NCBI GenBank assembly: GCA_013696965.1
Contig: JACCXN010000009.1
Location: 1-64,000 of the forward strand
DNA length: 64,000 bases
Origin: Bacteroidota bacterium
Lineage (GTDB): Bacteria > Bacteroidota > Bacteroidia > JACCXN01
Direction: 5' to 3'
Positions 9,280 through 21,219 of the stretch are shown piece by piece. Positions within the stretch are counted from its first letter, which is position 1. Every line of letters begins with the position of its first letter. The notes below the pieces were generated by a model. The model was not told where the DNA came from, did not search any database, and saw only the letters and a program-made list of their open reading frames with translations. The position numbers were made by a program, and so were the translations under genes.

Positions 9280-9444
9280 TTATTTTAAGTTTTTATTTTT
9301 AATTTCTATTGTTTAGTTTTTTCAATTTTTGGGGTAATTAAACCCTATAAACAAATATAATGTTTAATTAAACAAAATAGGATTTTTATTAGATGGAAAA
9401 AGTATATGTATTTGAAAGCATAAAAGCGCAATGCCTTAATTTTT

Positions 9445-9580
9445 ATGCTGCACTTGCCCATTGTTAGTGCAGGATCAGCTCAAACCATTTGTGCAGGAGA
9501 TGCAATTACACTTTCTGGTTCAGGAGCAGTATCCTACAATTGGAATAATGGAGTAACCGATATGATTTGCTTTTTAACTG
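9445..9580 (+). pseudogene. Orphan fragment of an Ig/PKD-type adhesin repeat
   Basis: The frame reads AGSAQTICAGDAITLSGSGA and continues SYNWNNGVTD. This is the beginning of the repeat found many times over in Bacteroidota type IX-secreted adhesins (ICAG..VTLSGSGA..Y.W.NGV). There is no signal peptide and only one incomplete repeat. From about 9581 the reading frame passes straight into the palindromic repeat element. It is a leftover of a larger gene rather than a functional small protein. Confidence 0.6.
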
Positions 9581-9584
9581 TCAG

Positions 9585-9648
9585 CCCGATTTATCGGGAT
9601 AGCCCTGTTATATTCATTAGCGTTTGTGAATGGTTCGTGCATGGCTAT
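9585..9648 (+). repeat. Palindromic repeat element, copy A
   Basis: The element starts with the hairpin CCCGATTTATCGGG (9585-9598), overlaps ATAGCCCTG (9599-9607), and ends in CATGGCTAT (9640-9648). The interior, TTATATTCATTAGCGTTTG, is shared with copies B and C at 10908 and 11011. It ends 9 bases from the stop codon of the multicopper oxidase gene and directly follows the adhesin fragment. Confidence 0.8.
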
Positions 9649-9657
9649 TTCTATTTT

Positions 9658-10878
9658 TTATCTCCCAATTATTATTTTTTTATTCAAATTATCATTCCCA
9701 ATAAGAATGTTTAAATAATAGATTCCCGGGTTTAAATCACCGACTTCTAATATAAGACTTTCATGAGTTTTTTCAGAATTTCCTGATTTAACAACTTGAC
9801 CAAGAGCATTTATTAAAGTAAAATTAATTTTATCCTTATCCTTATTTTTGAAGGAAATTTCCAAATAATTATCCGTGGGGTTTGGAAATACATGAACAGG
9901 GTTATCTAAAGTATTTTCATTTAATCCAACATAACCATTAATGGCAACAGGAACATATTGCACATTCCAAACTGAATCAGTATTCATATTTAAATATTTA
10001 ACAATGACATTTCCAGTAAATTGACCAGAAGCATTAAGCATAACTTCAAAACGTTCACCTGGCATTATCTCCAGGGTATCACTTTGAATTGCATTAGGCA
10101 TTGGCCTTCCATCTGAGGAAAGTATTGTAGCATTCAGTATTGAAGGAAAAATAATTCGGTTATTAAAATAGCCAATGTTCGCAAGCCGCATATAAATTTT
10201 TTCACCCTGGGTTCCTGTTATTTTAATGGAATCATCCTGAGCTATTTGTTGTTCAGATTTACCATTAATAAGAAAATAATCAGGCAAATAAGCAGGTACA
10301 AGTATCATATCGCTCACGGTATCATGTTGAGGAGGATTTAAATGCCATTGCGAGTCAATTTCTGTCATTAACCATTTATAATCTTTATCAAATGATGGCC
10401 CACCTGTCCATGCCGATTTAACTCCATTGGCAGCACGAACCACTATTAATCCATACATTCCCATTTGTAAATGCACCACATCTCCAACATGACAATGATA
10501 AATATAGGTGCCTGGATAATCAGCAACAAAAGTGTATGTAGTGTCCTGCATGTGGCTAAGCCAGAATGAAGTAGCAGGGTCTCCATCATTGCGCGTATCC
10601 ACATCCAATCCATGTAAATGAACGGTATGATGCTCTCCCTGTGATACATTTCGGGCAGTAATAATTACAGTATCTCCTTGTTCTGCATAAAGTATTTTTG
10701 CAGGCAAAGTGGGTGGGGTTGATAAAGTAGAGGAAAAACCCCAAATTGCAACACTATTCCCGTCCCACATGCTTGCTGAACCGGTATTGCTACGCAGTAT
10801 AACGGTATATTTAATTGTTTTTTGTGCCATTAACTGGAAAGAAGCTAAAAAAACAATCAGGGTAATTCTATATTTCAT
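9658..10878 (-). CDS. Secreted multicopper oxidase with type IX sorting domain
   Basis: 406 residues from the Met at 10878, chosen because it opens a clean signal peptide (MKYRITLIVFLASFQLMAQ). The frame stays open to 10965, but that part is repeat-element sequence. Copper ligands are visible: HTVHLHG (type 2/3 HxH) and YHCHVGDVVHLQMGM, which supplies an HCH, a further His and an axial Met for type 1 copper. The second cupredoxin domain (residues about 200-310) lacks a clear ligand set. The last 85 residues (VFPNPTDNYLEISF through LNPGIYYLNI to KKIIIGR) are a type A type IX secretion sorting domain. It is therefore exported and probably surface-bound. The substrate is unknown. The upstream region carries duplicated repeat elements, and the neighbour at 11196 is also a cupredoxin protein. 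Confidence 0.88.
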   Translation of the reverse strand: MKYRITLIVFLASFQLMAQKTIKYTVILRSNTGSASMWDGNSVAIWGFSSTLSTPPTLPAKILYAEQGDTVIITARNVSQGEHHTVHLHGLDVDTRNDGDPATSFWLSHMQDTTYTFVADYPGTYIYHCHVGDVVHLQMGMYGLIVVRAANGVKSAWTGGPSFDKDYKWLMTEIDSQWHLNPPQHDTVSDMILVPAYLPDYFLINGKSEQQIAQDDSIKITGTQGEKIYMRLANIGYFNNRIIFPSILNATILSSDGRPMPNAIQSDTLEIMPGERFEVMLNASGQFTGNVIVKYLNMNTDSVWNVQYVPVAINGYVGLNENTLDNPVHVFPNPTDNYLEISFKNKDKDKINFTLINALGQVVKSGNSEKTHESLILEVGDLNPGIYYLNILIGNDNLNKKIIIGR

Positions 10879-10907
10879 ATGTAGATAATTTGTTTTTTTA
10901 AGGTCAT

Positions 10908-10971
10908 CCCGATTTATCGGGATAGCCATGTTATATTCATTAGCGTTTGTGAACGGTTCGTGCATGGCTAT
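10908..10971 (+). repeat. Palindromic repeat element, copy B
   Basis: Hairpin CCCGATTTATCGGG at 10908-10921, then ATAGCCATG (10922-10930), ending in CATGGCTAT (10963-10971). These ends are a perfect 9-base inverted repeat around a 32-base core. It lies in the 5' leader of the multicopper oxidase gene. Confidence 0.8.
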
Positions 10972-11010
10972 TTCATATGTATATAATTTGTTTTTTTAAG
11001 GTCATATGGT

Positions 11011-11060
11011 ATAGCCCTGTTATATTCATTAGCGTTTGTGAACAGTTCGTGCATGGCTAT
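11011..11060 (+). repeat. Palindromic repeat element, copy C
   Basis: ATAGCCCTG (11011-11019) to CATGGCTAT (11052-11060), with the same core as A and B but without the CCCGAT hairpin. It belongs to the second unit of the 98-bp tandem duplication. Confidence 0.8.
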
Positions 11061-11063
11061 TTC

Positions 11064-11132
11064 ATAATTTATTCGTTTTTTAATTATGCTCCAGGGAACT
11101 CATGAATGCTAAAGCATTTGTCTTTTAATTTT
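11064..11132 (-). repeat. Leader repeat, copy 1 (matches 20680-20749 in inverse orientation)
   Basis: Read on the minus strand, this stretch and the leader of the LEA lipoprotein gene at 20755 agree at roughly nine of ten positions by eye, with one single-base gap. They share CATTCATGAGTTCC and AATTAAAAAACGAATAAATT. Both contain a small stem AATGC-(4 nt)-GCATT whose arms are kept while the loop differs. It lies between the cupredoxin gene and the repeated oxidase leader. Confidence 0.75.
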
Positions 11133-11199
11133 CATCCCCATATTCTGTACGCCTGTTAACTTCATCGGTCTGTGTGCGGGATTGCGTAGGGTTTTTCAT
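11125..11199 (-). CDS. Possible 24-residue microprotein overlapping the cupredoxin stop codon
   Basis: An ATG at 11199 overlaps the TGA of the cupredoxin gene (ATGA, 4-base overlap). It opens a 24-codon frame starting MKNPTQSRTQTDEVNRRTEY and ending at TAA 11125-11127. It is very hydrophilic and charged, and its GC content is higher than that of the flanks. The overlap would allow translational coupling. There is no family I recognise, its end runs into the leader repeat, and a frame of this size can arise by chance. Confidence 0.25.
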   Translation of the reverse strand: MKNPTQSRTQTDEVNRRTEYGDEN

Positions 11200-20557: not shown

Positions 20558-20629
20558 AGTTTTTTAAGAGTTATTGCAGCACCAATATTTAATTCTGTAA
20601 TAACCCACTTTTACTTATGAAATTGTAAG

Positions 20630-20671
20630 ATAGCCACCATACACAAACAGGAATAAATTTAACATGGCTAT
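20630..20671 (+). repeat. Palindromic repeat element, copy D (shorter core)
   Basis: It begins ATAGCCA and ends CATGGCTAT, the same ends as copies A to C. The core is shorter and diverged (ACACAAACAGGAATAAATTT, which is partly the inverse of the A-C core TTATATTCATTAGCGTTTGTG). It is followed directly by leader repeat copy 2. Confidence 0.6.
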
Positions 20672-20679
20672 TCAATATC

Positions 20680-20749
20680 AAAATTAAAAAACAAATGCTT
20701 TTGCATTCATGAGTTCCATAGAGGATTAATTAAAAAACGAATAAATTAT
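20680..20749 (+). repeat. Leader repeat, copy 2, ending just before the LEA lipoprotein start codon
   Basis: Matches the minus strand of 11064-11132. It ends AATAAATTAT and is followed within six bases by the ATG at 20755, so it forms the whole immediate 5' leader of that gene. The sequence just before both starts is also alike: AAATTATATACTATGAAA here and AAATTATCTACATATGAAA at the multicopper oxidase. Confidence 0.75.
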
Positions 20750-20754
20750 ATACT

Positions 20755-21219
20755 ATGAAAAAGCCTGTTTTATATTTGTTTATTCTGCTTGCAGTTGTTT
20801 CATTTTCTGCATGCTCATCAATTGAACCTTTGAGTGTAAGTAAAGTTGAGAATATTAAACTTCAAAATTTCAGTAAAAATTCCCTTGCCCTGGAAGTTAC
20901 TTTTATAATAAAAAACCCAAACCGCTACAAATTCAAAATTACAGACAATAATTTCAACGTTTTTTTGAACAATGCAGAGTTAGGAACAGCAAAAATTAAA
21001 AAGAAATTAATCATTCCAAAAAAATCTGAGGATTCCTACACCTTTATTATTGAAACACAATTCTCAAAATTGGCAATGGGAAGTATACCAAGCCTATTGA
21101 ACATGTTCAGGACAAAACAGGTGGAATTTAAACTCATAGGCGAAGTAAAAGTTAAGACATTGGGGGTAGGCAAAAGATTCCCAGTTGAAATTGTTGAAAA
21201 AGTGGCTATTGGAAAATAA
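20755..21219 (+). CDS. LEA type 2 family lipoprotein
   Basis: 154 residues with a lipoprotein signal peptide ending at C20 (LLAVVSFSACSS). The body is one water-stress/LEA-2 fold: VENIKLQNFSKNSLALEVTF, then IKNPNRYKFKI, then NAELGTAKIKKKLIIPKKSE, then a final beta segment. These small immunoglobulin-like lipoproteins are common in Bacteroidota. Their role is unknown, possibly envelope protection or lipid binding. The residue after Cys is Ser, so no outer-membrane retention rule can be read from it. The leader consists of repeat DNA (20630-20749) shared with the multicopper-oxidase locus. Confidence 0.82.
   Translation: MKKPVLYLFILLAVVSFSACSSIEPLSVSKVENIKLQNFSKNSLALEVTFIIKNPNRYKFKITDNNFNVFLNNAELGTAKIKKKLIIPKKSEDSYTFIIETQFSKLAMGSIPSLLNMFRTKQVEFKLIGEVKVKTLGVGKRFPVEIVEKVAIGK

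Follow-up and report, generated by a model that had tools for sequence, protein, structure and literature searches.

Repeat copies around the multicopper oxidase gene

The window (the whole stretch of 64,000 nucleotides that was analyzed) contains a multicopper oxidase gene on the minus strand, whose ORF of 406 aa begins at ATGAAA (10878) with a signal-peptide N-terminus (MKYRITLIVFLASFQLMAQ) and comprises the Pfam domains Cu-oxidase_3, Cu-oxidase_2, Cu-oxidase, and Por_Secre_tail. The first-pass annotation had reported four copies (A to D) of a short palindromic repeat, three of them next to this gene, and all four are present at the coordinates it gave. Copies A (9585–9648) and B (10908–10971) are 97% identical and have ends and core in common, copy C (11011–11060) matches copy B with an identity of 94% over 53 nt, and copy D (annotated at 20630–20671) matches it with about 81% over 36 nt. 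Also as described, there is a CCCGATTTATCGGG hairpin, and copy B has a perfect inverted repeat of 9 bases. The oxidase stop codon (TAA, 9658–9660) is separated from copy A by 9 bases, and copies B and C lie inside the oxidase leader. The description of the gene as bracketed by repeats is correct as to layout, but the bracketing is incidental: two units stand at the oxidase start because the start codon is their target, and copy A, downstream of the gene, is without its left end.

The annotation had missed that the repeated unit exceeds the palindrome and takes in TTTCATATGTATATAATTTG..., that the left end of the unit coincides with the oxidase start codon, that copy C is followed by a decayed third unit (about 11066–11142), and that copy D belongs to a longer element adjoining another start codon (20755). 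The locus comprises the following features:

9585–9654, plus strand: copy A, right half of an element (hairpin and right-end stem), left end missing or degraded
9658–10878, minus strand: multicopper oxidase gene with a C-terminal sorting tail and the array at its start codon
10873–10878, plus strand: target TTTCAT, complement of the oxidase start ATGAAA and left border of the array, as read in the sequence
10879–10976, plus strand: element unit 1, hairpin type, holding copy B, with its own TTTCAT at 10971–10976
10977–11065, plus strand: element unit 2, holding copy C, with terminal TTTCAT at 11060–11065
11066–11142, plus strand: third unit, long form, decayed (TTATTCG...GAATGCTAAAGCATTTG...TTTTCAT), right hairpin lost
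20617–20760, minus strand: copy D, complete long-form element, decayed, with its left end on ATGAAA (20755–20760)

The core of unit 1 is identical to eight further genomic copies, and the third unit was assigned by its likeness to long-form spacers of other arrays. The gene at copy D, on the plus strand, begins with MKKPVLYLFILLAVVSFSAC and is lipoprotein-like, judging from its sequence. The left flank of copy A (ATGATTTGCTTTTTAACTGTCAG) represents a truncated left end. Further to the left (window 9440–9570), we observed a fragment of a gene, similar to those for repetitive surface/PKD-type proteins (TICAGDAITLSGSGAVSYNWNNGVTD), and given this fragment, copy A may mark the end of a rearrangement or deletion.

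Structure of the unit and formation of arrays

Comparison of 36 loci revealed a longer unit, often in tandem, of which the palindrome makes up only the right half. The full element, with a length of ~90–98 nt or, in another form, ~147 nt, spans TTCAT|NTGTANATWATTTG... to ...CATGGCTATTTCAT and, in element orientation, follows the grammar [TTCAT] NTGTANATWATTTG-TTTTTTAA-N-GTCA-N'-ATGGWAT - right stem - loop - right stem - TTTCAT. In the genome of the window (G000; 3.86 Mb, 106 contigs), complete units are mostly 86–99 nt long, and a long form measures ~133–151 nt. Read in gene sense, 89 of the 100 G000 units begin with ATGAAATAG, so that the displaced start codon directly precedes a stop; the beginning differs in other genomes, e.g., ATGAAATCCCC in G156.

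The 100 G000 units form 57 arrays of 1–5 units each. Tandem units have TTTCAT junctions in common, each unit carrying its own TTTCAT at the right end. Identity between units was 0.845 within the same array and 0.829 between arrays (permutation p = 0.11), and only 5 of 71 units had their best match inside their own array. We therefore rejected tandem duplication as the source of the arrays, as array-mates are no more alike than units of other arrays, and conclude that arrays arise by repeated insertion at the same TTCAT: each unit renews TTTCAT at its right end, and further insertions there build the tandem array.

Both ends form covarying hairpins. On the left, the base after TTCAT covaries with a base ~20–35 nt further on (N:N'), and this pair is of Watson–Crick type in 159 of 201 cases (A:T 77, C:G 36, G:C 35, T:A 11), compared to a mean of 62 and a maximum of 90 after shuffling. 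On the right, the stem varies jointly between genomes (AGCC/GGCT, ACCC/GGGT, GTCC/GGAC, and GCCC/GGGC), with ATGGA and TTTCAT remaining constant. A guide-type copy, taken as single-strand DNA, folds into both hairpins (z −2.9); on folding of a hairpin-type (CCCGATTTATCGGG) copy, the left hairpin is absent.

ATGGA is common to the left 3' arm (CANATGGA) and the right 5' arm (ATGGAAT...), which overlap there, and both TTCATs can pair with this same internal sequence. This overlap suggests that the two TTCAT sites would compete for one guide. In most guide-type copies, ATGGA is complementary to TTCAT with one G.T pair; in 47 of the 100 G000 units, ATGGW is replaced by CCCGATTTATCGGG, and the guide is thus not needed for persistence. 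A G is fixed opposite the second T of TTCAT (158/201 on the left, 64/68 on the right), which gives a wobble on the TTCAT strand. Among other non-canonical pairs (7 G.T vs. 22 A.C), the TTCAT strand was not favored, and as proof of the folding strand the asymmetry between G.T and A.C was equivocal.

Short perfect palindromes (CCCGATTTATCGGG, CCGCCAGCTGGCGG, CCCGCACGTGCGGG, and CCCCGATCCATCGGGG) replace or split the guide region in many units, as seen at L312, L263, L320, L028, and window 10908–10921. Perhaps they represent a second, smaller palindromic element landing in the first.

Insertion 3' of TTCAT

At locus L071, one unit sits within a Y1 transposase gene and disrupts it (...AATAA-ATGAAAT-AGCC...ACAT-ATGAAAT-TATGG...). 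Excising exactly 90 nt converted two broken alignments into a single gapless 533-nt alignment (83%) with the paralogue L069, and thereby supplied an empty site. As this copy is away from any start codon, the target is TTCAT as such. TTCAT borders nearly all copies on the left, i.e., insertion occurs 3' of a fixed pentanucleotide, and each insertion adds one unit of ~90 nt.

The annotation had also suggested looking for target-site duplications. Where the gene begins with ATGAAT or ATGAAC, the left flank is ATTCAT or GTTCAT and the right end is still TTTCAT (e.g., L010 and L054); the flanks are thus no true duplication, although at copies with TTTCAT on both sides a duplication is indistinguishable from insertion without one. 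The same flanks bear on the idea that the family derives from a DDE-type insertion sequence as a double-strand MITE and duplicates a 6-bp target, ATGAAA. Although ATGAAA stands on both sides of many copies and the non-autonomous copies are short, such an element is very improbable: the flanks are unequal at ATGAAT/ATGAAC starts (ATTCAT or GTTCAT on the left, TTTCAT on the right), the two ends are not mutual inverted repeats, and the subterminal hairpins show a covariation for which duplex ends would have no need.

We consider it likely that the family consists of IS200/IS605-like, single-strand transposable elements that are non-autonomous. A Y1 (HUH) transposase acting in trans would fold the TTCAT-bearing strand, ATGGA would serve as guide for cutting after TTCAT at both ends, and the resulting single-strand circle would be inserted 3' of another TTCAT.

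Copy number and distribution

A search with the 64-nt copy B yielded 81 matches at E ≤ 1e-3 in G000, many more than chance would give, nine of them identical, B itself included. The repeats therefore form a dispersed family, and the locus-specific duplication that the annotation had allowed for, with only four copies in the genome, is excluded. Across 149 genomes searched, its own included, the core matched outside G000 only in G048, from a different family within the class. For the left-end motif, we counted 161 occurrences in G000 and 81 in G048, compared to 5 and 10 for the reversed control. With a degenerate left-end pattern, at least 120 stretches were found in 84,980 species genomes. Among the matches listed, these were Bacteroidota throughout, with Sphingobacterium, Parapedobacter, Chitinophaga, Algoriphagus, Prevotella, Marivirga, Prolixibacteraceae, and Dysgonamonadaceae as carriers. 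The viral contigs searched gave no match to the element.

In G250, four copies (L132, L133, L135, and L136) have both flanks in common and lie inside a dispersed repeat of ~300–540 bp; these are the copies at 'MKMALKKS'. A TPP riboswitch above gathering score was found near one array (L028:2028–2125, minus strand).

Start codons as landing sites

On the opposite strand, the left border reads ...ACAT-ATGAA..., with the start codon of the adjacent gene. In most cases, the left TTCAT is the complement of this ATGAA, so that the insertion spares the start codon and puts a new leader before it. An ORF of at least 60 aa starts at the outer left end in 37 of 56 cases in G000, 20 of 31 in G048, 21 of 30 in further genomes, and 89 of 104 in the carriers among the matches listed. 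Other non-genic TTCAT sites, for which crude gene calls with ORFs of at least 80 aa were used, lie at starts in 72/285 and 92/297 cases (25–31%). The excess was significant throughout (Fisher p = 9e-9 for G000, 3e-4 for G048, 5e-6 for the further genomes, and 9e-29 for the 104 cases), and the difference in threshold (60 vs. 80 aa) does not explain an excess of two- to threefold.

The genes behind the elements have unrelated functions and include many exported proteins as well as Maf-, FAH-, NqrC-, and response-regulator-like genes, which we presume to be such from N-termini recognized by eye. The FAH gene (L032) had matches in 57 of 60 genomes, nearly all beginning at the same first residue, and the upstream stretches inspected in relatives contained no element. 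The start codon is therefore native, and the element stands in front of it.

This position could also suggest that the family is mainly a cis-acting 5' leader, regulating translation or transcription and multiplied by recombination instead of its own transposition; in the mRNA, the left stem would occlude the start codon, CAUAUGAA. We regard this as unlikely. It would account for the strong association of units with start codons and for the inclusion of the start codon in the left stem, the covariation fits RNA as well as DNA, and the complementary strand folds nearly equally (−8.9 vs. −9.9 kcal/mol). However, one copy occupies an internal ATGAA of a transposase gene with an exact 90-nt empty site, units of an array are unrelated to one another beyond the family average, and the genes behind the copies differ widely in function. 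Moreover, the distribution is patchy, the strict grammar being found in 7 of 395 genomes of the class with up to 12 occurrences per genome, and an Rfam search revealed nothing within the element.

For a single-strand transposable element, start codons would be enriched because ATGAA matches the guide and the coding frame survives insertion there. The enrichment may reflect selection, by which other insertions were lost, target preference, or both. Start codons thus appear as the target address, with the gene left intact behind a new leader. Bacterial mobile DNA usually lands between genes and so avoids harm; this family appears to land on the commonest start-codon context of Bacteroidota, with the leader replaced and the protein intact. 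Our literature searches found no description of such elements at start codons in Bacteroidota, and to our knowledge, as well as in the papers searched, there is no account of start codons as landing sites, of one guide shared by both ends, or of a target that renews itself and builds arrays. More tentatively, the family could be a phylum-wide DNA parasite whose guide reads the start codon (ATGGA pairing with TTCAT, the complement of ATGAA). Many host genes would thereby have received a common 5' leader with the start codon inside a hairpin, and these leaders were possibly taken over for gene regulation.

Search for the transposase

No transposase gene was found between the ends of the element, and the annotation had likewise seen none in the window. 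The annotation had further pointed to a transposase or TnpA-REP gene with matching ends; at the Y1 loci examined, neither the strict pattern, the covarying left-end pattern, nor the right-hairpin score placed the ends of the family around any Y1 gene. Conversely, no Y1 gene was found near the left ends among the matches listed (at least 120 stretches). At L168 and L169, in two genomes of a single genus, a galE-like gene has the element at its start, a few hundred bases away from an IS200-like Y1 gene. We rejected this proximity as proof of a link, since the element sits at the start of the neighboring gene and both loci belong to the same genus.

Y1 proteins were assigned to subclasses 1.2 and 2.6 by motifs, without a tree. 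According to Quentin et al. (PMC6006769), subclass 1.2 is generally devoid of typical IS200 end structures, and subclass 2.6 has atypical flanking structures with copies elsewhere in the genome. RAYT 2.6-like genes occur in 13 of 15 genomes with at least two left ends, compared to 133 of 380 others (p = 8e-5), and subclass 1.2-like genes in 12 of 15 compared to 179 of 380 (p = 0.01); these co-occurrences are purely statistical and uncorrected for phylogeny and genome size. Due to its weaker association, the 1.2-like Y1 was dismissed as partner.

Dispersal by RAYT (TnpA_REP) of the Bacteroidetes subclass 2.6, which would make the family REP/REPIN-type, overlaps with a single-strand transposable element and differs from it in which Y1 enzyme acts. 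The co-occurrence and the atypical flanks with genomic copies ascribed to this subclass (PMC6006769) are in line with it, but we hold it to be doubtful: beside the 2.6-like genes inspected we found other palindromes instead of the element family, the consensus foot is ATGGA or GTCAT instead of GT[AG]G, and two distinct ends with a fixed target are closer to IS200/IS605 ends. The RAYT-like genes of G000 (L069 and L071 flanks) have palindromic repeats of their own, e.g., AACTTATAGTTAC...CTTAGTGTG, which belong to a different family.

Relation to known elements

The annotation's reading as a miniature, non-autonomous mobile element (MITE/REP type) stands in that the family is dispersed, non-autonomous, and mobile, with many copies and an empty site; it does not hold for a classical MITE or a canonical REP. 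Classical MITEs are likewise short, non-autonomous, and numerous, but here the ATAGCCATG/CATGGCTAT palindrome is the internal right-end hairpin, the true ends (TTCAT|NTGTANAT... and ...GGCTATTTCAT) do not form inverted repeats, and a true target-site duplication is absent. REP/REPIN/BIME sequences with RAYT are also small, palindromic, dispersed, high-copy, and probably processed as single-strand DNA, and RAYT 2.6-like genes co-occur with our family. Unlike them, the element has no GTAG/GGAG foot, no RAYT gene flanking the copies or lying between them, and defined left and right ends, and it lies inside 5' leaders, whereas REPs are extragenic in general.

Similarities to IS608 and ISDra2 (PMC5934647) are insertion 3' of a short fixed sequence that is kept on the left without target duplication, subterminal hairpins, and possibly cleavage sites that pair with a guide sequence of the element. 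IS608 inserts 3' of TTAC, which is picked by a guide in the transposon (PMC5934647), and has separate left and right guides; our element has a single putative guide (ATGGA) overlapping both stems. Further differences from IS608/ISDra2 are the lack of tnpA and tnpB, the target TTCAT, antisense of the start codon, and the identity of the target with the right-end cleavage sequence, which gives rise to tandem arrays. Palindrome-associated transposable elements (PATEs) are short, ends-only IS200/IS605 derivatives that are thought to be moved in trans (PMC7290912). Our family resembles them in being short, ends-only, and IS200/IS605-like, but it spreads across the Bacteroidota phylum and clusters at start codons. 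Its membership in this PATE-like group is incomplete, since no IS was found that has these ends and could be the parent, and half of the G000 copies lack the guide.

The family offers a direct test of DNA-guide control over target choice and a candidate substrate for the orphan Y1/RAYT enzymes of Bacteroidota. It may also lead to misplaced start calls and to breaks in the assembly of Bacteroidota genomes. With respect to G000, many contigs end within element arrays (L009, L010, L015, L023, L026, L031, L036, L038, L039, and L040), and the element therefore breaks assemblies.
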